Shown here in pieces: positions 50,210-61,215 of a stretch of DNA of 64,000 nt. Source of the stretch: Streptomyces uncialis. GTDB taxonomy: Bacteria > Actinomycetota > Actinomycetes > Streptomycetales > Streptomycetaceae. Every line of letters begins with the position of its first letter. Position 1 is the stretch's first letter. A program made the translations under genes and the position numbers. Location: the NCBI RefSeq assembly GCF_036250755.1, contig NZ_CP109583.1:6115501-6179500 (forward strand), written 5' to 3'. The notes below the pieces were generated by a model. The model was not told the origin of the DNA, made no database searches, and saw only the letters and a program-made list of their open reading frames with translations.

Positions 50210-50356
50210 GGGGCGGGGGTTGGGGGTGGGGGTGGGGAGTGTTGTGGGTGCGGCTCCCTACCCCACTGTGAACGTTCGCGGGGCGGTGTGCCTGGGGCTG
50301 TCCTTGGGGGTGCGGGGACCACGGTTTGCGGAGGTTGTTGAGCCACTGGCGGACTG

Positions 50357-50994
50357 GGACATCCCCGCGCGTGTGGGGACCACAAACTCCTCGAAACGTC
50401 GATCACCGCCGACGGCGGACCACTCCCGCGCATGCGGGGACCACTCCAGCAGGTCGTTGTTCACGTAGGCGGGGACCGGACCACCCGCGCGCGTGCGAGG
50501 ACTACGCCCCCCGACCAACACTTTCGTGCTGAGCCGGTCGGACCACCCCCGCGCGTGCGGGGACTACGCCTTGTACTCGACGTCTTCGCCCTCGTCCACG
50601 GGACCACCCCCGCGCGTACGGGGACTACCGTCCTGAGTGGGGAAGCGGACCGCCCGGTAAGGGACCACCCCCGCGCGTGCGGGGACTACCTGGTGCTCCT
50701 CCTGGCGGAGGCGTACTACGGAGGACCACCCCCGCGCGTGCGGGGACTACACGACGATGCCGTCCTTCCACGGCTGCGCGCCCGGACCACCCCCGCGCGT
50801 GCGGGGACTACCCCGAGAACCCCACGCCCCGCCCGGAGTACCCGGGACCACCCCCGCGCGTGCGGGGACTACCCGACCCTGGACCGCGAGCGGATCGAAG
50901 CGTACGGACCACCCCCGCGCGTGCGGGGACTACATCGACAACGGAGAGCGTAAGGACACGGACGCGGGACCACCCCCGCGCGTGCGGGGACTAC
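50357..50994 (-). CRISPR. CRISPR array 1 (type I-E-like repeats, 11 repeats)
   Basis: Eleven 28-bp repeats start at 50357, 50417, 50478, 50540, 50601, 50662, 50723, 50784, 50845, 50906 and 50967, separated by 32-34-bp spacers. The plus-strand consensus begins GGACCACCCCCGCGCG and ends TGCGGGGACTAC. The repeat hairpin (CCCCGC/GCGGGG) is that of I-E families. Repeats at the left end are degenerate (50357, 50417, 50478), and a further decayed one may exist at about 50300-50322. The right end is therefore the leader side and the array is transcribed from the minus strand. No cas genes are nearby. Peptide-like frames (e.g. DHPRACGDY) are translations of the repeat. Confidence 0.97.
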
Positions 50995-52878: not shown

Positions 52879-53436
52879 TCAGGTCGCACGCTGAGCACTG
52901 ACGGCGTCCGTGTAGGTGTCCCGGGTCAGATCCTCTGGACCGATGTCCAGATCGCCGAGAACAGAGCGGATGTCGTCCAGGGCCGCCGATACGTCATGTT
53001 CCTCCACCAGCGTCTCGATCTCCAGGAACGTGCCGTCGACCTCGGGCACACGGACGAGAGTGGCGAGCATGTGACGTCCGCACGCCTCGAAGGCGTAGTT
53101 GCGGCACCGCTTTTCGAAGGCGATGACCAGTACATGGCCGAGTCCGCGCACGATGGCGTGGGCCGCCGCAGCGTCTTCGACCCGGGTCTCGTACTCGGGT
53201 TTTGAACCCGATGTCTCGTCAACGGAAGCGCCCTTGAAGGTTAGGAAGGTGTGGGCGCCGTGCGCGCCGTGCACGGTGCGCACCCGCAGTTCCTTGCCTG
53301 CACGGCTGAGTTCCCCATCGGGCTGGTCGTAGTAGCTGTCCTTGTACACCTCGACACGTGCGTCGGCTCGATCGTCGAGAGCTTGCGTCACCGCCTCGGG
53401 CGTGTGCACCCGCGCTTTGAGTTCGGCCTCGATCAC
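52879..53436 (-). CDS. CYTH-domain protein (class IV adenylyl cyclase/triphosphatase type)
   Basis: A 185-residue CYTH (CyaB-thiamine triphosphatase) tunnel-fold protein. The defining ExExK is E3-A-E5-L-K7 at the very N-terminus. Further conserved charged strands are 'KDSYYDQPDGELSRAGKELR' then VRTV, 'TFLTFKGASV', 'YETRVEDAAAAHAIVRGLG', 'FEKRCRNYAFE' and 'TFLEIETLVEEHDVSAALDD'. Members hydrolyse or cyclise triphosphates with Mg/Mn. Which activity applies here cannot be told. GTG 53436 has AAGGAG 5 nt upstream. The HTH gene ends 14 bp before it on the same strand, so the two form an operon. Confidence 0.9.
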   Translation of the reverse strand: MIEAELKARVHTPEAVTQALDDRADARVEVYKDSYYDQPDGELSRAGKELRVRTVHGAHGAHTFLTFKGASVDETSGSKPEYETRVEDAAAAHAIVRGLGHVLVIAFEKRCRNYAFEACGRHMLATLVRVPEVDGTFLEIETLVEEHDVSAALDDIRSVLGDLDIGPEDLTRDTYTDAVSAQRAT

Positions 53437-53450
53437 TCTTTCTCCTTCTC

Positions 53451-54302
53451 TCAAACGGTGCGTTCAGCACCCTCGATGATGACTTCGAACGTGCGTCGGA
53501 AACCCCGGAACAAGGGGCCGTGCGGAGTCTCCACCACCTTGTACATCGCGGATTCGTGGCCTTCCCAGCCGCTATCGAAAACGCTGACGAACATCGTTGA
53601 ATCGACGCGGATGACCCGCCAGGTGGGGAGCGTCTTGTACCGGTACACCTTGATGTCGCACACGCTCGCCAACTCCCGGAGCCGGGATTCTGCCAGCTTC
53701 ACACCACCTGCCAGCGACTCGGTGGACTCACCGATCTCCGCAGCCCGTTGGACCAACGCGGTCGAGTCCGGGTCCAGAAGCAGAACGCGTACGCGCTTGC
53801 CCTCACTGCCGGGCTGCCGAGGCAGGCACGAGCGTAGGAGCGAGTCGTTCAGCCCGATCAGTCCGAGACCCCGAACCGCGAGGACATCCAATTCTGCCGC
53901 CTCGCGTGCCATCTGCTGGATCTCTTCGGCAGCGGAACGCTGTGCCGCGTAGACCCGAACCACTTCGGGGAACGCGGCCAGGTCGAAGGCCGGTCCACCT
54001 ACGTGCTGCGCACGGCTGGCGGCAAGCCCCAGTAGATGTCGAGCGTCGCCGGGCATGCTCAGCCCATCAGCGATCCGCTCGTAGACGTCCAGTCTGCTGA
54101 CTTCCCGGCGGCCATTGATGATCTCGTTGACACGCCCCTGAGCCATGCCGACAGCGGTGGCGATGCGGCCTTGGCTGGCTCCGGAGTACCGCTGTACGTA
54201 CCGGAAGACGGCTCCGATGTCTCGTTCCCTCAGCGCCTGACGCACGTCAGCTCGCTCCCACGCCCAGGTGGGCAGGCCCACTGGTCCAACGTCGATGGAC
54301 AC
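53451..54302 (-). CDS. HTH regulator with C-terminal sensor-like domain, operon partner of the CYTH gene
   Basis: 283 residues. The N-terminal XRE helix-turn-helix at about 30-85 reads 'VFRYVQRYSGASQGRIATAV' then 'MAQGRVNEIINGRREVSRLD'. The C-terminal half ('LDVLAVRGLGLIGLNDSLLR', 'VRVLLLDPDSTALVQRAAEI', 'CDIKVYRYKTLPTWRVIRVD', 'STMFVSVFDSGWEGHESAMY') resembles the DUF5919/phospholipase-D-like domain that many actinobacterial HTH proteins carry, often beside nucleotide-processing enzymes. GTG 54302 with AAGGAG. A perfect palindrome upstream is a likely self-operator that would also face the divergent cassette a-b-c-d. Confidence 0.85.
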   Translation of the reverse strand: MSIDVGPVGLPTWAWERADVRQALRERDIGAVFRYVQRYSGASQGRIATAVGMAQGRVNEIINGRREVSRLDVYERIADGLSMPGDARHLLGLAASRAQHVGGPAFDLAAFPEVVRVYAAQRSAAEEIQQMAREAAELDVLAVRGLGLIGLNDSLLRSCLPRQPGSEGKRVRVLLLDPDSTALVQRAAEIGESTESLAGGVKLAESRLRELASVCDIKVYRYKTLPTWRVIRVDSTMFVSVFDSGWEGHESAMYKVVETPHGPLFRGFRRTFEVIIEGAERTV

Positions 54303-54334: not shown

Positions 54335-54351
54335 GATCTCACGGTGAGATC
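54335..54351. promoter_or_regulatory. Perfect palindrome between the HTH gene and cassette gene a1
   Basis: GATCTCACGGTGAGATC has 8-bp arms around a central G, in the 97-bp divergent region. A related half-site TTGAGAT lies at 54321-54327. It is a probable operator of the HTH protein controlling both directions. Confidence 0.75.
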
Positions 54352-54399: not shown

Positions 54400-54810
54400 A
54401 TGGACGAGACCGCCAGCTTGAGTCTGGCCTGTGCTGAAGAGCCATCCCTGCTGAGTGACCGCCTGACCGAGTGGGTCCGTGGCCGTGACATCGGTGAACG
54501 GGCGGCGGTAGCCGCGTTGATCGAGGAGGGTGACGTTCTCGCGCGTGGGGACGTCCGGGATCTGCTGGTCGTGGAGAACGAGGCCGTCGTGTTCTGCGAC
54601 TGGCCGCGGTTCGAGGCCCAGTACCGGTGCGTGCTGGTGCTGGACGAGGGTGAGGACGCGTTTCTGACGCTGGTCCTCGCGACGGCGTTCCCGAGGCTGG
54701 TGCCGCTCTGGAAGGTCGAGGTGCTGGGGGACCGGCGGCTGGTGATCGTGCTGCGGGCGCTGGCCCGGTTGGCGGGGTCGGATTCGGTCGCGGTGGGGTG
54801 CCGGTCGTGA
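54400..54810 (+). CDS. Cassette gene a, copy 1 (unknown)
   Basis: A 136-residue soluble protein, no membrane segment. From residue 18 it is nearly identical to the copy at 58540 (about 97% at DNA level over the portion I compared). Helical start 'RGRDIGERAAVAALIEEGDV', then 'DVRDLLVVENEAVVFCDWPR', 'FEAQYRCVLVLDEGEDAFLT', 'VPLWKVEVLGDRRLVIVLRA'. The alternating hydrophobic strands suggest an alpha/beta domain. No family recognised. Its stop overlaps the GTG of gene b by 4 nt (GTGA). The first 17 residues differ between copies, marking the edge of the duplication. Confidence 0.8.
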   Translation: MDETASLSLACAEEPSLLSDRLTEWVRGRDIGERAAVAALIEEGDVLARGDVRDLLVVENEAVVFCDWPRFEAQYRCVLVLDEGEDAFLTLVLATAFPRLVPLWKVEVLGDRRLVIVLRALARLAGSDSVAVGCRS

Positions 54811-55160
54811 CGGTGATGATCTGCTGCCGTTGTGATCAGCCCATCAGGTCCGGTGAGTTGCACGAGCGGCTGTTCCGTGACTCGATGTCGGGGCCGGGGA
54901 TCACGATGCACCGCCACGAGCGGTGTGCCGACGAGCCGGGGGCGGTCCCCGTACGAGGTCAGGCGGGCGGTCCGCAGTGGTACGGCGCCGACGACTGGAG
55001 CCGTCTCGCGCCGATGTCCCCGGCCCATGCGCTGGCGTGGGGCAGGTTCCTCACCCACGTCGGTGCCTGCGGGCAGTGCAACGGCGACGACCCGTGGTCC
55101 TGCGAGGCCGGCCGCGTGCTGCGGAGGGTGTGGCGGACGGCGGCACGGGAGTCGTGGTGA
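54807..55160 (+). CDS. Cassette gene b, copy 1 (Cys/His-rich, probable zinc protein)
   Basis: 117 residues starting MTVMICCRCDQPIRSGELHE. Possible zinc ligands are C6-x2-C9, then 'TMHRHERCADEP', and a second group 'GACGQCNGDDPWSCEAGRVL'. 'GGPQWYGADDWSRL' and 'PMSPAHALAWGRFLTHVG' lie between. The layout is that of a small two-zinc module, possibly nucleic-acid or protein binding. The GTG start at 54807 overlaps the stop of gene a and the stop overlaps gene c, so three products are coupled. The second copy (58947) differs by a few residues only. Confidence 0.8.
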   Translation: MTVMICCRCDQPIRSGELHERLFRDSMSGPGITMHRHERCADEPGAVPVRGQAGGPQWYGADDWSRLAPMSPAHALAWGRFLTHVGACGQCNGDDPWSCEAGRVLRRVWRTAARESW

Positions 55161-55387
55161 GGCGGCCCGCGGTGCCGTGCGCGGCGTGCGTACGGGCCCG
55201 GGTGGTGGGCGTGCCCGGGAGTCGGCATGGCTGTCATGGGGTGACACGGTTGAAGCTGGGTCGTCGTCGGCAGCTGCGGTTGCGATGGTTCGCGCGTCGC
55301 TGTCCGTGTACGTGCGGGGGCGCTGGTCTCGGTCCGGGGCCCGGGTCGGCGCTGGGTGCGGGGACGGGGCGGTCGGGCCGAGGGTGA
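55157..55387 (+). CDS. Cassette gene c, copy 1 (small Cys-rich basic protein)
   Basis: 76 residues from GTG 55157, overlapping the stop of b. The conserved part against copy 2 is 'RRPAVPCAACVRAR', 'HGCHGVTRLKLGRR' and 'LRLRWFARRCPC-x-CG'. After that the copies diverge completely, with a Gly-rich tail here, suggesting the functional domain ends there. Four to six conserved Cys and one or two His would suit zinc binding, and the strong positive charge suggests contact with nucleic acid. It is conserved in both cassettes and therefore more likely real than chance. Confidence 0.6.
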   Translation: MRRPAVPCAACVRARVVGVPGSRHGCHGVTRLKLGRRRQLRLRWFARRCPCTCGGAGLGPGPGSALGAGTGRSGRG

Positions 55388-55567
55388 TCGGGCGAGGGGC
55401 CCGGGTTCCTTGCGTTCCGTGCGGTCACGGTCTGCCTGGTGCGAGGGTGCGGTGGCCCCGGTTCGCAGGTACGGGGTGCTGGGTCCGTCCTGGCCGCCGC
55501 TCACGATCGGTGTCCGGCCGGTGGTCCTCCCGGTGCGGTGGGTGCTGCTCCGGCCGACACGGGAAAC

Positions 55568-55742
55568 ATGAGTGTCCCCGTCGTCGTTCATCCGCCCAGC
55601 CCCACGGGCGCGCGACGGGTACGCGCGGGCGATCAGATCCTCGGCCTCGCCTACAGCCATGGCGATCTAGCGGAGTTCTTGCGCCGAGCGGGGTTGGACC
55701 TCGACCCTGCGGGGGTCGGCACGAGCACGATGATCCAGCAGA
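55568..55742 (+). pseudogene. Cassette gene d, copy 1, 3' end displaced by CRISPR array 2
   Basis: ATG 55568 with a GGGAAA site. The first 58 codons ('MSVPVVVHPPSPTGARRVRA', 'GDQILGLAYSHGDLAEFLRR', 'AGLDLDPAGVGTSTMI') match the intact copy at 59696. The intact protein continues WRGGGPDVWSP, but here the terminal CRISPR repeat begins two codons after 'TMI'. The following 33 bp (spacer 1) still contain GATGTCTGG, the Asp-Val-Trp codons of the intact gene, out of frame. The frame then runs through the whole array. It looks as if the repeat became embedded in the gene end. Confidence 0.6.
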
Positions 55743-56258
55743 GGGCCACCCCCGCGCGTGCGGGGACCACTCCGATGTCTGGCGCTCCCCCGGCGGTGAG
55801 CACGGACCACCCCCGCGCGTGCGGGCACTACAGCGCCTCACGTACCCCCTCCGCGACCTCCCAGGGACCACCCCCGCGCGTGCGGGGACCACGATGCGTT
55901 GAGCGTCGTGGTAGGTGGTGCCGTGGGACCACCCCCGCGCGTGCGGGGACCACACCCCCACCACCGCCCGGCCCGGCCCGTCCCCCGGACCACCCCCGCG
56001 CGTGCGGGGACCACGGCCTTCTTCTCCGCGTCGTCGGCCGCCTTCTGGGACCACCCCCGCGCGTGCGGGGACCACCGACCGCGCCGGCCGCCGATGGCAG
56101 CTCACCTCGGACCACCCCCGCGCGTGCGGGGACCACGCCTGATGTCCGGCGACACCGTGATCACCATCGGGACCACCCCCGCGCGTGCGGGGACCACGTC
56201 CTTGCGGTGCGCCGTGGTCATCATGGTTGCGGACCACCCCCGCGCGTGCGGGGACCAC
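55743..56258 (-). CRISPR. CRISPR array 2 (9 repeats)
   Basis: Nine 28-bp repeats at 55743, 55804, 55865, 55926, 55987, 56048, 56109, 56170 and 56231, strict 61-bp period, eight spacers of 33 bp. The plus-strand repeat begins GGACCACCCCCGCGCG and ends TGCGGGGACCAC, differing from array 1 in the last three to four bases. The two leftmost repeats carry changes (GGGC at the start of the first; GGGCACTAC at the end of the second), and the leader is on the right, so transcription is on the minus strand. It starts inside cassette gene d. No cas genes. Confidence 0.97.
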
Positions 56259-56458
56259 ACTTCCTGACCTGCGGGTTTCTCAGCGGATCGGGCCGTTTTC
56301 CTTTAGTCGCATCGCACCCCTGCGTTCGCCTTTGGCGGTCCTCCGTGCAAGGCACCTGTACCCGTACACCTGATCCGTCCCGGGAAGGGTACAACCGGTG
56401 CAACCGGCACCCGGCCTGGTCCCGTCCGCTGCACGGCGCAGTGGGCGCAACGAGTCCG
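56259..56458 (-). promoter_or_regulatory. Leader of CRISPR array 2
   Basis: Begins ACTTCCTGACCTGCGGG and contains CCGTTTTCCTTTAGTCGCAT, GGTACAACCGG and GGGCGCAACGAGT, all shared with array 1 in the same order over about 190 bp. Confidence 0.85.
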
Positions 56459-56573
56459 GGCCTTACTCCGGAGAGCGTGGGGAGCAGGGCGGTGGACGTG
56501 ATCAGTTCGGCGTGCGGCAGGGAGCCGATGCCCCGGCCTGGCCAGTCCGGCTGGGCCGCGAGATCGCACAGCC
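56459..56573 (-). other. Coding-like remnant between leader 2 and the GNAT pseudogene
   Basis: On the minus strand a short frame reading 'RTEQLIGLCDLAAQPDWPGR' and 'GIGSLPHAELITSTALLP' looks protein-like but has no start of its own and runs into the array leader. Probably debris of a disrupted gene. Confidence 0.3.
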
Positions 56574-57058
56574 CTATGAGCTGTTCGGTACGGGCACCTT
56601 CGGGGACCCGGTCCACCAGTTCCGGTCCGAACCAGTAGTCGGCCGAGCGGAACAAGCCCACCCTGCGATCACGTCGAGAAGGGGCGGGAACGGCGTACGA
56701 GCAGTTGGGCCCGGTCTTCGCTTCGATGACTCATCAGCTCGTCGTGCATCACCTGGGAGATGCCACGCCCTCGGTGGCCTTAGCGGAGGTTCTCGCAGAG
56801 GGTGAAGGTCGTGCCGTCGCGTGCAGTGAAACCGTAGGTGAATCCTGCCCGTTCGCCGCTCATCCGCGCGATGACGCACTCTCAGCCAGCAGCGGACGTA
56901 TGGCCCTCAAGCCGTTCTTCGAAGCGCTCCAGCGCGAAGAACGGGTCGGTGGCGATGTCCTGCGCGTACACCTCGGAGTACACGTCGAGGATGACGCTCC
57001 GGATCTCCGGCAGGCGGTCGACCGTGTGGTACTCGGTGGTCATCGGGTCTACCGACAT
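56574..57058 (-). pseudogene. GNAT acetyltransferase pseudogene
   Basis: The N-terminal part 'MTTEYHTVDRLPEIRSVILD', 'VYSEVYAQDIATDPFFALER' is followed in the same frame by a TGA (56884-56882) where homologues have Trp, then 'ECVIARMSGERAGFTYGFTA', a TAA at 56782, and 'RGRGISQVMHDELMSHRSED' with the acetyl-CoA loop. Two in-frame stops within an otherwise continuous GNAT sequence mark it as inactivated. The C-terminus does not match the family and merges with debris near the array 2 leader. Confidence 0.7.
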
Positions 57059-57206
57059 ACAGGCATCGCCTCGTATCACTCGGAGAGTCCCACAAGTCTC
57101 GTACAGCCCTCGACGGCAAGGTAGTTCGTGAAGGTGGCTCGTGGGCCGTGGAGCGGCGCACGCCCTTACGCTGGCAGCGACGAACTGTACAGAGAGGGGT
57201 CATACC

Positions 57207-58460
57207 GTGTCCTTCGACGTTCCCCGCCCGGACCCGTACGCGGACCCGGTCGCGTTCGGGCAGAGACTCCGCATCCTGCGTACCAGGCGTGGACTGACCC
57301 GCGAACATCTCGGTGGTCTCGTCGGGTATTCGGCGCAGTGGGTCAAGGATCTGGAGACCGGCCGTCGTCAGGTGCCGCGTCTTTCGGTGATGCTGCGGCT
57401 CGCCGAGGTGCTGCGGGTGGCGAACCTCGCGGATCTCATGGGGGAGCGGTGCGCGGGCGTGGATCTCTTCACCGGACCTGGTCATGCGCGGCTCGGTGAG
57501 GTCAAGGCGGCGGTGGACGCCTTTCCGCTGGTGACCCGGCGCGAGGCACCGCCGGTCGCGCACCTCGCCGAACGGGTGGCCCGCGCGTGGGCCGCGAGGC
57601 ACTCATCGCCCCATCACCGCGACGTGATCGGCGCGTTGCTACCGGAGCTCTTGCGTGACGCGCAGCTCTCCGTACGGCAGTCCGACCGGGCGGCGGAACG
57701 GCGCGCGGCCCAGGCCGTGCTCGCCGAGGTCTACTCGCTCGCGCAGTTCTTCATCGCGTACCAGCCGGACACGGCACTGTTGTGGCGGGTGGTCGAGCGC
57801 GGGCTGATCGCCGCGCAGGAGTCCGAGGACCCGCACGTCATCGGTGTCGCCGCGTGGCTGGCCGCGCAGGCCCACCGCGACCTGGGACCTGCCCACTTCG
57901 ACGCCGCCGACGCCGTGAACCTGGAGACGCTCGCCTACCTCGAACCGTTCCTGCCCGACGCCCCGCCCGACGTGCTCGCCATCGCGGGCGCGCTCACCTT
58001 CGAGGCCGGGTACACCGCTGCCCGGCGCGGCGAGACGGGCACCGCCTGGCGCTACTGGGACCAGGCACGGCCCATGGCCGAACGGCTGCCGGCCGACTAC
58101 TACCACCCGGTGACGAGCTTCTCCCGTACGGTCATGGGCGCCCACGCGGTCACGATCGCGGTCGAACTTCGTTCGGGCGGCGAGTCGGTGCGCCAGGCCG
58201 CCGCGGCGGACGTTCTGGAGATCCCGTCAAGGCCGCGCCGTGCCCGCCACCGTATCGAGGAAGCGCGCGGCTATCAGCTGGACGGCCAGCCCGACGTGGC
58301 GTTGGCGACGCTGGAGAAGGCCCACCGGAGTGCGCCCGAGACGATCAAGTACAACGGCTATGCCAAGCGGATCGTGCTGGAGGAGACCGCGTCGAAGGTC
58401 CCGGCGCGCCGCCGTCGCGCGTCGGCGTTGGCGGTGACCCTCGGCATGCTGGCCGCCTAG
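57207..58460 (+). CDS. HTH (XRE) regulator with TPR-like domain, upstream of cassette 2
   Basis: 417 residues. The helix-turn-helix at about 12-70 is clear: 'FGQRLRILRTRRGLTREHLG' then 'GLVGYSAQWVKDLETGRRQV'. The remainder is helical repeats ('AVLAEVYSLAQFFIAYQPDT', 'RVVERGLIAAQESEDPHVIG', 'FEAGYTAARRGETGTAWRYW'), the architecture of streptomycete signal-responsive regulators that work with small partner proteins. GTG 57207 follows GAGAGGGG. Cassette gene a2 starts 79 bp downstream on the same strand, so they may share a transcript. Confidence 0.9.
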   Translation: MSFDVPRPDPYADPVAFGQRLRILRTRRGLTREHLGGLVGYSAQWVKDLETGRRQVPRLSVMLRLAEVLRVANLADLMGERCAGVDLFTGPGHARLGEVKAAVDAFPLVTRREAPPVAHLAERVARAWAARHSSPHHRDVIGALLPELLRDAQLSVRQSDRAAERRAAQAVLAEVYSLAQFFIAYQPDTALLWRVVERGLIAAQESEDPHVIGVAAWLAAQAHRDLGPAHFDAADAVNLETLAYLEPFLPDAPPDVLAIAGALTFEAGYTAARRGETGTAWRYWDQARPMAERLPADYYHPVTSFSRTVMGAHAVTIAVELRSGGESVRQAAAADVLEIPSRPRRARHRIEEARGYQLDGQPDVALATLEKAHRSAPETIKYNGYAKRIVLEETASKVPARRRRASALAVTLGMLAA

Positions 58461-58539
58461 ACAAAGGGGTGCACTTCGCACCCCTGATGCCTCGCGGCCA
58501 CTTCTACGGTGCCTTCACCGACCGTGGAGAGGGACTGCG

Positions 58540-58950
58540 ATGAACGCGCGCGAAACACAGACATGGGATCTCGACGGGGGGCCACCCCTCTTGTCCGACC
58601 GGCTCATCGAGTGGGTCCGTGACCGCGATATCGGGGAGCGGGCCGCTGTCGCCGCGTTGATCGAGGAGGGCGACGTTCTCGCGCGTGGGGACGTCCGGGA
58701 TCTGCTGGTCGTGGAGAACGAGGCCGTCGTGTTCTGCGACTGGCCGCGGTTCGAGGCCCAGTACCGGTGCGTGCTGGTGCTGGACGAGGGTGAGGACGCG
58801 TTCCTGACGCTCGTCCTCGCGACTGCGTTCCCGAGGTTGGTGCCGCTCTGGAAGGTGGAGGTGCTGGGGGATCGGCGGCTGGTGATCGTGCTGCGGGCGC
58901 TGGCCCGGTTGGCGGGGGCGGATTCGGTCGCGGTGGGCTGCCGGTCGTGA
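58540..58950 (+). CDS. Cassette gene a, copy 2 (unknown)
   Basis: 136 residues, with an N-terminus (MNARETQTWDLDGGPP) unlike copy 1 but from 'LLSDRLIEWVRDRDIGERAA' onward almost the same protein. Conservation of the frame with mostly silent differences argues that it is a functional coding sequence. It lies 79 bp after the HTH/TPR gene and overlaps gene b by GTGA. No known domain. Candidates for function include a partner of the adjacent regulator or a toxin-like component, neither supported by motifs. Confidence 0.8.
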   Translation: MNARETQTWDLDGGPPLLSDRLIEWVRDRDIGERAAVAALIEEGDVLARGDVRDLLVVENEAVVFCDWPRFEAQYRCVLVLDEGEDAFLTLVLATAFPRLVPLWKVEVLGDRRLVIVLRALARLAGADSVAVGCRS

Positions 58951-59300
58951 CGGTGATGATCTGCTGCCGGTGTGATCAGCCCATCGAGTCCGGCGAGCTG
59001 CACCAGCGGCTGTTCCGTGACTCGATGTCGGGGCCGGGGATCACGATGCACCGCCACGAGCGGTGTGCCGACGAGCCACGGACGGTCCCCGTACGAGGTC
59101 AGGCGGGCGGTCCGCAGTGGTACGGCGCCGAGGACCGGAGCGGCCTGCCGCCGATGTCCCCGGCCCACGCGTTGGCGTGGGGCAGGTTCCTCACCCACGT
59201 CGGTGCCTGCGAGCAGTGCAACGGCCCCGATCCCTGGTCCTGCGAGGCCGGCCGCGTGCTGCGGAGGGTGTGGCGGAAGGCGGCACGGGAGTCGTGGTGA
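58947..59300 (+). CDS. Cassette gene b, copy 2 (Cys/His-rich, probable zinc protein)
   Basis: 117 residues, differing from copy 1 at about 15 positions, none of them the Cys/His pattern ('CCRCDQPIESGELHQRLF', 'MHRHERCADEPRTVPV', 'GACEQCNGPDPWSCEAGR'). Retention of every putative zinc ligand across both copies is the main support for a metal-binding role. Start GTG 58947 inside the stop of gene a2 and stop inside the start of gene c2. Confidence 0.8.
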   Translation: MTVMICCRCDQPIESGELHQRLFRDSMSGPGITMHRHERCADEPRTVPVRGQAGGPQWYGAEDRSGLPPMSPAHALAWGRFLTHVGACEQCNGPDPWSCEAGRVLRRVWRKAARESW

Positions 59301-59518
59301 GGCGGCCCGCGGTGCCGTGCGCGGCGTGCGTACGGGCCCGGATCGTGGGCTTGGCGGGCGATGACCACGGCTGCCATGGGGTGACACGACTGAAGCTGGG
59401 CCGCCGAGGACTGCGGTTGCGGTGGTTCGCGCGTCGGTGTCCCTGTGCGTGCGGGGTTGGGGGTGGTGGGGTCCGGCGTGCGTCGCGTTCTGGGGCGGGG
59501 GGCACGGTTCCCGTGTGA
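59297..59518 (+). CDS. Cassette gene c, copy 2 (small Cys-rich basic protein)
   Basis: 73 residues from GTG 59297. It shares 'RRPAVPCAACVRAR', 'HGCHGVTRLKLGRR', 'LRLRWFARRCPC-x-CG' with copy 1 and then diverges in a Gly/Arg tail. Its existence as a gene rests on the overlapping start, the conserved Cys pattern and conserved length in the two cassettes. Confidence 0.6.
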   Translation: MRRPAVPCAACVRARIVGLAGDDHGCHGVTRLKLGRRGLRLRWFARRCPCACGVGGGGVRRASRSGAGGTVPV

Positions 59519-59695
59519 GCTGCCGCAGGGTGGGGCGCCGTTACGCGCTGTGGCCGTCCGTGTGAATCGGGTGGTGCTGCGTATCGGGGCGCGGTGCGGG
59601 GACCTGGTGTCGTGCCTGTCCCGGCCGGTGACGTTCGGTGTCCGGTCGGTGGTCCCCGGGGTGCGGTGGACGTGGGCGCGACGGAGGCTGGAGAC

Positions 59696-59920
59696 ATGGC
59701 CGTCCCCGTCGTCGTCCACCCGCCGAGCCCCACCGGCGGGCGACGAGTACGCGCGGGCGACCAGATTCTCGGCCTCGCGTACAACCTCCGCGACCTCTCG
59801 GAGTTCCTGCGGCGCGCGGGGTTGGACCTGGACCCGGCGGAGGTAGCGACGAGCACGATGATCGAGTGGCGGGGCGGGGGGCCTGATGTCTGGAGCCCCC
59901 ACGAGCTGGGTTCTGCTTGA
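59696..59920 (+). CDS. Cassette gene d, copy 2 (intact)
   Basis: A 74-residue protein: 'MAVPVVVHPPSPTGGRRVRA', 'GDQILGLAYNLRDLSEFLRR', 'AGLDLDPAEVATSTMIEWRG', 'GGPDVWSPHELGSA'. A strand-rich N-terminus followed by a helix and an acidic end, ending in the WRGGGPDVW motif I associate with small conserved Streptomyces proteins of unknown function. ATG 59696 with GGAGG-like ACGGAGGCTGGAG upstream. A gap of about 177 bp to gene c2 contains a word block (CGGTGTCCGG-CGGTGGTCC) also present at the same place in cassette 1. The decayed first repeat of array 3 begins 26 bp after the stop. Confidence 0.75.
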   Translation: MAVPVVVHPPSPTGGRRVRAGDQILGLAYNLRDLSEFLRRAGLDLDPAEVATSTMIEWRGGGPDVWSPHELGSA

Positions 59921-59946
59921 GTTCCGAACGATTTCGGCTGGGGTTG

Positions 59947-61072
59947 GGGAGTCCTCGCGCGTGCGGGGACGACACATGCAGTCAGACGCCTGCCCACGCA
60001 GCGAAGGGACCACCCCCGCGCCTGCGGGGACGACGACTCCGATCAAGTCGCAGACGCGATCGGTCAGGGACCACCCCCGCGCGTGCGGGGCCGACTAGAA
60101 AAGGGTCGGGCCCGTGGCCTCACCGGAGGGACCACCCCCGCGTGTGCGGGGCCGACTGAACGCGCAGCGGCCCGAGCTGATCGACCACCGGACCACCCCC
60201 GCGTGTGCGGGGCCGACGCGACGACGACCTACGGGTCCGGGGCGCTGTCGGGACCACCCCCGCGTGTGCGGGGCCGACCCCAGGTCTGGGTGACCTCGCC
60301 CCATCTGGAGAGGACCACCCCCGCGTGTGCGGGGCCGACTTCCGCTCGCCGGGGCTGGGGAGGGTCATGGTGGGACCACCCCCGCGTGTGCGGGGCCGAC
60401 CACGAGTAGGCCGCGGCGCCGGTCTCCAGCGGGGGACCACCCCCGCGTGTGCGGGGCCGACATGTCGGCGACGCTGTGCCGCCAGTACCCGACCGGACCA
60501 CCCCCGCGTGTGCGGGGCCGACTCATCGAACGACGCGCCCGCACCCGGCCCTTCAGGACCACCCCCGCGTGTGCGGGGCCGACCATGTGTCCCCCTCAGG
60601 CGGCGAGCATGTCGAGGGACCACCCCCGCGTGTGCGGGGCCGACGGCTCCGAGGTCCGCGCGGGCCGCCTCCGCCCTGGGACCACCCCCGCGTGTGCGGG
60701 GCCGACATGTTCCACCCGCACGGTTCACGCCACGCTGCGGGACCACCCCCGCGTGTGCGGGGCCGACGACTTGCCCATGTTGGTGACGCCCGCGATCAGC
60801 GGACCACCCCCGCGTGTGCGGGGCCGACGGTCCTGGTCGCCGAGATCGCGCACGTCCTCAGGGACCACCCCCGCGTGTGCGGGGCCGACGCGACCACCCC
60901 GGACAACCTCCGGAGCGCCGCCGGACCACCCCCGCGTGTGCGGGGCCGACTTGGTGACATCGCGTGCCCGCGCGAGGATGCCCGGACCACCCCCGCGTGT
61001 GCGGGGCCGACGGGCTCAACTTCGGGATCTTGCCAGCCTCGATGGGACCACCCCCGCGTGTGCGGGGCCGAC
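59947..61072 (-). CRISPR. CRISPR array 3 (18 repeats plus a degenerate terminal one)
   Basis: Repeats of 28 bp at 60007, 60068, 60129, 60190, 60251, 60312, 60373, 60434, 60495, 60556, 60617, 60679, 60740, 60801, 60862, 60923, 60984 and 61045, with a decayed copy at 59947-59973. The consensus begins GGACCACCCCCGCGTG and ends TGCGGGGCCGAC. The first one or two full repeats instead keep CGCGCCTG/GCGCGTG and GGGGACGAC, an intermediate form that records how the array's repeat changed. Leader on the right, so minus-strand transcription. No spacer repeats another by eye. No cas genes. Confidence 0.97.
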
Positions 61073-61215
61073 ACTTCCTGACCTGGGGGTCTTTCAGCGG
61101 ATCGGGCCGTTTTCCTTTAGTCGCATCGCGTCCTCCACCGTCTCCTCCCGTACCCCCGTACGGGAGCCCCGTACCGCTGCGTCCGGTCGGCTTCCGCGAA
61201 GGGTACAGCCCAGGG
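61073..61215 (-). promoter_or_regulatory. Leader of CRISPR array 3
   Basis: ACTTCCTGACCTG, a short variant stretch, then CCGTTTTCCTTTAGTCGCAT as in arrays 1 and 2. Beyond about 70 bp the similarity is weaker, with GAAGGGTACA still recognisable at 61198. Confidence 0.8.

Follow-up and report, generated by a model that had tools for sequence, protein, structure and literature searches.

Why should the same four small genes stand twice in one region of a bacterial chromosome, each time against the left end of an array of clustered regularly interspaced short palindromic repeats (CRISPR)? The question is raised by a stretch of Streptomyces uncialis DNA of 64,000 nucleotides (nt) (contig NZ_CP109583.1, C1:6115501-6179500, hereafter the window) within a 9.26 Mb genome of three contigs. 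We call the genes a, b, c and d, and a is the core of the cassette that they form. By analogy with published loci, we give a probability of about 0.5 to the reading that a and b, in places with c, form a module that serves an XRE-type helix-turn-helix (HTH) regulator as effector or partner, with the arrays and d as likely neighbours rather than working parts. Streptomyces is rich in XRE regulators that have a small partner gene, and a number of these regulators control development and antibiotics; the a family, which is absent from Pfam and NCBIfam as scanned, is a candidate output of such regulators, and its recurrent link to them makes the idea testable.

Both copies of the cassette lie on the forward strand. 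In the first, a1 (54400..54810) encodes a protein of 136 amino acids (aa) that is acidic (isoelectric point, pI, 4.5), helical and without known family, b1 (54807..55160) a protein of 117 aa with two putative zinc sites, and c1 (55157..55387) a Cys/His-rich, basic protein of 76 aa (pI 12.0), while d1 (55568..55742) is interrupted by the array and has no stop of its own. The second comprises a2 (58540..58950, 136 aa), b2 (58947..59300, 117 aa), c2 (59297..59518, 73 aa) and an intact d2 (59696..59920, 74 aa, phrog_17005 family). The copies are homologous, with protein identities of 96.7% over 122 aa for a, 90.6% over 117 aa for b, 86% over 50 aa for c and 83% over 58 aa for d. These coordinates, together with type I-E-like arrays of nine and 19 repeats adjoining the copies on the right, bear out a first-pass annotation of the DNA that had placed a-b-c-d twice, immediately left of an array. 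The overlaps that it had reported at GTGA junctions are also seen for a/b and b/c in both copies, so that the three genes look translationally coupled.

Gene a and its neighbouring regulators

The observation that carries our reading is the company that a keeps. Of 41 a hits, 34 have an XRE-type HTH gene no more than 3 kb away, as against 18 of 185 control points. In the window, a1 is divergent from XRE-type regulator 1 (53451..54302, reverse strand; Pfam HTH_31, E 1.9e-7), which shares an operon with the gene of a CYTH-domain protein (52879..53454, reverse strand; Pfam CYTH, E 3.4e-18), just as the first-pass annotation had it. Upstream of a2 lies XRE-type regulator 2 (57189..58460, forward strand, 423 aa; HTH_31, E 2.7e-15; phrog_5823, E 2.5e-101), which had been described as an HTH/tetratricopeptide repeat protein; the HTH part of that description stands and the repeat part was not confirmed, Pfam giving HTH models only. 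A CYTH-HTH operon divergent from a, as at copy 1, occurs again in another Streptomyces (L090). All seven b matches in this genome directly follow an a, and relatives of c occur as the C-terminal part of b, as a fusion, at two further loci of this genome (L033, L034) and two of S. uncialis strain DCA2648 (L050, L051). The earlier proposal of a regulator-linked system of small proteins is thus sustained.

The family is widespread in this genome and sparse in other Streptomyces. A protein search gave 11 a matches here: the two window copies, a full copy and a fragment at L030, single genes at L031, L032 and L035, and tandem pairs at L033 and L034. Profile searches scored only 10 candidates per genome, which makes their counts lower bounds, and placed a in at least 21 of 392 Streptomyces genomes and, across the class, in at least 5 of 394, of which one is outside the genus. 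The relative from outside the genus (L161:1453-1893) has a WhiB gene in its vicinity, and the 3.4 kb of its locus contain no HTH. At the 20 loci of other Streptomyces (L081-L100), a is accompanied by a C3-cluster gene (BldB-like small protein/DUF6879) at 14 and by a C4 gene at 11 (the example scanned is phrog_38395). Pfam identified DUF6879 (L086) and HTH with DUF5753 (L085, L048) in the examples examined, and on a Streptomyces cynarae plasmid the order by annotation is DUF6879, HTH, C4, a. In other species a often ends a DUF6879-XRE-C4-a operon.

The other genes are distributed differently. Matches to b were found in the genomes of 10 of 150 relatives; outside this genome they are partial, mostly covering the N-terminal Cys/His domain. 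A protein search returned four relatives, three named S. uncialis and one a metagenome protein, and b is present in DCA2648 too; near its full length, b was found only in S. uncialis-type genomes, beside a. Gene d, on the other hand, has matches in 51 of 61 Streptomyces genomes (about 151 in all), and its five places in this genome are the two window copies and three that have no listed a or array beside them. The idea that d is fully independent of a had to be softened, since d lies near a at 2 of the 20 other-species loci (L085, L097) and also at the S. uncialis locus L049, where flagged repeats turned out to be a plain tandem repeat. It is a common Streptomyces gene with a weak, loose linkage to a. 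All four genes were seen together only at the window locus and its DCA2648 orthologue, so that the recurrent four-gene set contemplated in the first-pass annotation is, by that annotation's own reasoning, a local one, while the link between a and a regulator is not.

As a mechanism, we picture a-b(-c) as one of several paralogous modules scattered through the S. uncialis-type genome, with the adjacent regulator controlling the a-b-c promoter. The small, acidic, helical a and the putatively zinc-binding b and c would act as one unit, which may be the output of the regulator or may bind it, in the manner of WhiJ controlling iosA beside BldB. A perfect palindrome with 8-bp arms, GATCTCACGGTGAGATC, in the divergent promoter region of copy 1 (54335..54351) is a candidate operator and is also present in DCA2648; a hairpin after the regulator 2 gene, AGGGGTGCACTTCGCACCCCT (58465..58485, forward strand), could be a terminator or an operator. 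Each was equalled by 4 of 500 shuffles (mononucleotide shuffles for the palindrome).

Several observations weigh against this reading. In the comparison of 34/41 with 18/185, the 41 hits are non-independent, including paralogues as well as orthologues, the HTH profile was partly built from these same a loci, and the control points came from a small and partly overlapping set of regions; the remaining seven hits have no HTH within 3 kb. The regulators fall in different subtypes, and a DUF397 profile has no match in the window. Scans of paralogous a loci brought up no copy of the palindrome, and hairpins at the corresponding phage position differ from that at 58465-58485, so that neither element is a shared operator. 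For b2 and c, the ratio of nonsynonymous to synonymous substitution rates (dN/dS) is near 1 against DCA2648 (0.98, and 0.89 and 1.02). Finally, a2 of DCA2648 has an internal deletion and a frame break, and a b record of 77 aa is without the second zinc motif, which makes single copies dispensable.

The strongest alternative is that the cassette is mobile-element cargo, a phage 'moron' or integrative-element set whose small proteins would counter rival phages or elements, or affect the host, and which S. uncialis would have domesticated and multiplied. Over its full length, regulator 2 shares 69.7% identity with regulators of Streptomyces phages such as Eklok, and it has matches in 21 phage records, 15 of them at 60-80% identity. 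In OnionKnight and Eklok its relative stands between lysis genes and an integrase, with small genes after it; in OnionKnight these include two overlapping genes after the regulator, the first with an H-x3-C-x2-C stretch like the end of b, and phage gp27 and b2 have a short stretch in common, 35% identical across 34 aa (E 0.001, from one comparison). Relatives of d occur in five phage records, the plasmid of S. cynarae carries an a relative, and at L095 and L093 the neighbourhood of a includes Replic_Relax and FtsK-type genes. However, a itself had no match among 50,697 phage records at E 1e-5, and none of the PADLOC families was matched by a, b, c or d of the window. The phage comparison covered regulator 2, a and d. 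On balance we consider cargo unlikely.

Divergence and possible conversion of the copies

We scored DNA identity between the two copies in 75-column windows. It reaches 89-99% over about 54526-55200, falls to 47-81% at the start of a, and lies at 57-85% across c-d. The earlier statement that a and b are nearly identical in DNA is therefore right for the stretch around 54526-55200 and wrong for the start of a. Such a mosaic fits gene conversion acting on an older duplication. Specifically, in the 75-column window at 54526 copy 1 is 98.7% identical to copy 2 and 90.7% to the DCA2648 orthologue, and in that at 54901 the values are 96.0% and 88.0%; because both are nearer to the other copy than to the orthologue, the alignments suggest patchy gene conversion between the cassettes. 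Conversion of a as a whole gene was rejected, since a1 groups with its DCA2648 orthologue in the a-gene tree (87/86 support), and this too makes the conversion patchy. Gene a is 99% identical to its DCA2648 counterpart. Elsewhere in the genome, two a genes about 23 kb apart (L033:6590-6973 and L034:6642-7025) are near-identical in DNA (tree branches 0 and 0.0027), possibly a second case of gene conversion.

The selective regimes differ between the genes. For a, dN/dS is 0.10 between the copies and 0.03 against DCA2648, indicating purifying selection. For b it is 0.40 between the copies, and 0.27 and, for b2, 0.98 against DCA2648; for c it is 0.25 between the copies, rising to the values near 1 given above against DCA2648; for d it is 0.17 and 0.36. 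By these values a is the constrained gene, while b2 and c seem to have been under weak constraint ever since the two strains diverged.

One could take this as the sign of a decaying relic, in which the duplicated cassettes are mostly non-functional and are kept alike by gene conversion: d1 is cut by an array, a2 is broken in DCA2648, b is shortened in another record, and b2 and c have ratios near 1. However, decay accords poorly with a dN/dS of 0.03-0.10 for a and with an a-XRE linkage that recurs across species, and we regard it as improbable.

The encoded proteins and the arrays

The predicted model of a is all-helical with a small hairpin (predicted local distance difference test 87.9, predicted template modelling score 0.80) and has no convincing match in the PDB by sequence or by fold (Foldseek). 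No Pfam or NCBIfam family, whether of toxins, antitoxins or any other kind, matched a, b, c or d2 of the window at E up to 1, and Pfam over 98 a-family members gave scattered weak matches, the best at E 0.023. In b the putative zinc ligands C6, C9 and H37 are present in nine of nine aligned sequences, C40 in seven, and H84, C88, C91 and C99 in eight. The motif H-x3-C-x2-C is the zinc anti-sigma (ZAS) signature; b shows H84-x3-C88-x2-C91 in 8/9, but zf-HC2 was unmatched in Pfam at E up to 10. The low-confidence model of b (68.8) has beta structure in its N-terminal part and a pair of helices towards the C terminus.

These features allow a bolder version of the regulator-module reading, in which a founds a new class of XRE-regulator effectors with a new fold, and the acidic-helical and zinc proteins form one a-b-c complex, a sensor of metal or redox state whose feedback acts on a sigma factor or the XRE regulator. 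The module would spread as regulator cargo among phages, plasmids and chromosomes, with gene conversion keeping the paralogues coherent. We put this forward as a speculation that is rather unlikely to hold in full.

A pair resembling type II toxin-antitoxin systems, with a or b toxic and counteracted by either its partner or the XRE protein, would be in keeping with small coupled genes beside an XRE protein that are multi-copy and patchily distributed, and XRE-DUF397 pairs were once proposed as such systems (PMC2701414). Against it stands the lack of any toxin family in the scans above; moreover, no such behaviour was seen for fourteen XRE-DUF397 pairs or for Scr1/Scr2, and these pairs are described as pleiotropic regulators rather than toxin-antitoxin systems (PMC10364602, PMC6262351). 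We think this hardly probable.

There remain the arrays. The array beside copy 1 (55743..56258, nine repeats) and that beside copy 2 (59946..61072, 19 repeats) share a repeat period of about 61, and a third array of 11 repeats, without a cassette, lies at 50356..50994; by repeat polarity we place them on the reverse strand. Leader-like DNA common to the arrays lies on their right (56259..56315, reverse strand, and 61073-61129), which together with the repeat polarity suggests that the arrays run leftwards and should be transcribed towards the cassettes. The end of d2 is followed after 25 nt by its array (59946), while d1 is open up to the array, whose first repeat (55743) falls within the gene; the first, oldest 'spacer' of that array consists of DNA like the tail of d2 (GATGTCTGG...), and the same junction (55743-55836) is found in DCA2648.

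The history of the arrays can be followed to some extent. On the leader side, the array at 55743 is 98% identical to the cassette-less array at 50356 over 60 nt and 74% over the next 140, as compared with 92% and 57% for the array at 59946, which disfavours a duplication of cassette and array as one unit, although later recombination between arrays could mislead this comparison. The d-tail spacer is the only one common to the 36 of the three window arrays and the 35 of the three DCA2648 arrays, so that the arrays must have turned over since the two strains separated. Further repeat clusters of the genome lie at C1 4.30, 6.28 and 6.43 Mb and on C2. Neither Cas6e nor Cas7e families had a match in this genome, whose single Cas1 (C1 2.02 Mb) is of type I-B with Cas7, Cas5, Cas3 and Cas4 as neighbours; with the type I-E genes tested (cas6e, cas7e, cas1e) missing, the type I-E-like arrays of this strain appear to be orphans. 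DCA2648 has Cas1e and Cas2e, and a Cas5e match slightly below the cut-off (68.1 against 68.95 bits).

The first-pass annotation had entertained the idea that the cassette spread together with the arrays, and this is not supported: arrays were found at none of the six other a loci of this genome (L030-L035) and at none of the 20 loci of other Streptomyces. Only in the window, and at its counterpart in DCA2648, do arrays directly abut a. Within the loci examined, the association is local to these two and looks like local history; a pattern as striking as 'cassette plus CRISPR' can arise in this way, and it is absent from the other a loci examined. In another genome (G095, L143:8527-15780, a region chosen for its array), type I-E-like repeats stand 6.2 kb from a remnant of a, and about 180 nt from that remnant is a d-like stretch. 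That the cassette serves the arrays, for example with a as a Cas11-like small subunit, is most improbable: two cassettes abut arrays, an arrangement kept in DCA2648, and one a relative matched Cas11e (E 0.015), but that match concerns one of 98 family members and not the a of the window, Foldseek lists no Cse2 entry for a (a non-listing that is not decisive), the other a loci examined, here and in other species, have no arrays, and Cas6e and Cas7e are unmatched in this genome.

We also considered a link between arrays and XRE regulators across the genus. Of 14 array regions fetched from other Streptomyces, arrays were found in 12, and in two of these (L147, L149) an XRE-type HTH lies no further than 3 kb away, as against 33 of 500 control windows, which is not convincing as a rule. 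In this genome the count is three of four array regions (the window, L036 and L038, not L037), with L039 left out of the scoring for having too few repeats. At the L036 and L038 arrays (4.30 and 6.43 Mb), genes named as DUF397 through resemblance and a home-made profile lie 0.7-2.2 kb off, with an XRE-type HTH within 1.6 kb.

Comparison with known systems

The arrays themselves resemble type I-E arrays of Streptomyces: actinomycete repeats are described (PMC4762764) as 28 nt long with a CCCCGC-GCGGGG palindrome, and the window repeats have this length and palindrome. They differ from Streptomyces type I-E systems in that cas6e and cas7e were not found in this genome. Among phages, OnionKnight gp26-28 and Eklok gp25-29 offer a similar arrangement, a 70% identical regulator with a hairpin and then small Cys-rich genes after it, but these modules differ from the cassette in that no homologue of a was found in phages.

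Like Scr1/Scr2, presented as a regulator pair rather than a toxin-antitoxin system (PMC6262351), the window combines an XRE gene with a small partner. What sets it apart from Scr1/Scr2 and the remaining XRE-DUF397 pairs is that partner, a-b-c; as a, b, c and d2 had no DUF397 match, we do not file the cassette with those pairs.

Searches of open-licence papers turned up nothing on the cassette itself. The closest published counterpart is the WhiJ-BldB-AbaA/IosA loci. There, the XRE protein WhiJ9 binds beside iosA and is needed to activate it, and IosA is a protein of about 15 kDa with a pI of 10.3 and a predicted fold unlike solved structures (PMC10294661). The cassettes differ from WhiJ/BldB in that DUF397 was not seen beside them and that the window regulators match HTH models only in Pfam, although HTH with DUF5753 is present at some a loci; the pI of 4.5 of a also sets it apart from the basic IosA. 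However, a has a comparable mass (14.9 kDa) and likewise no convincing PDB match, and both systems consist of paralogous, scattered loci in which an XRE regulator stands beside a small gene.

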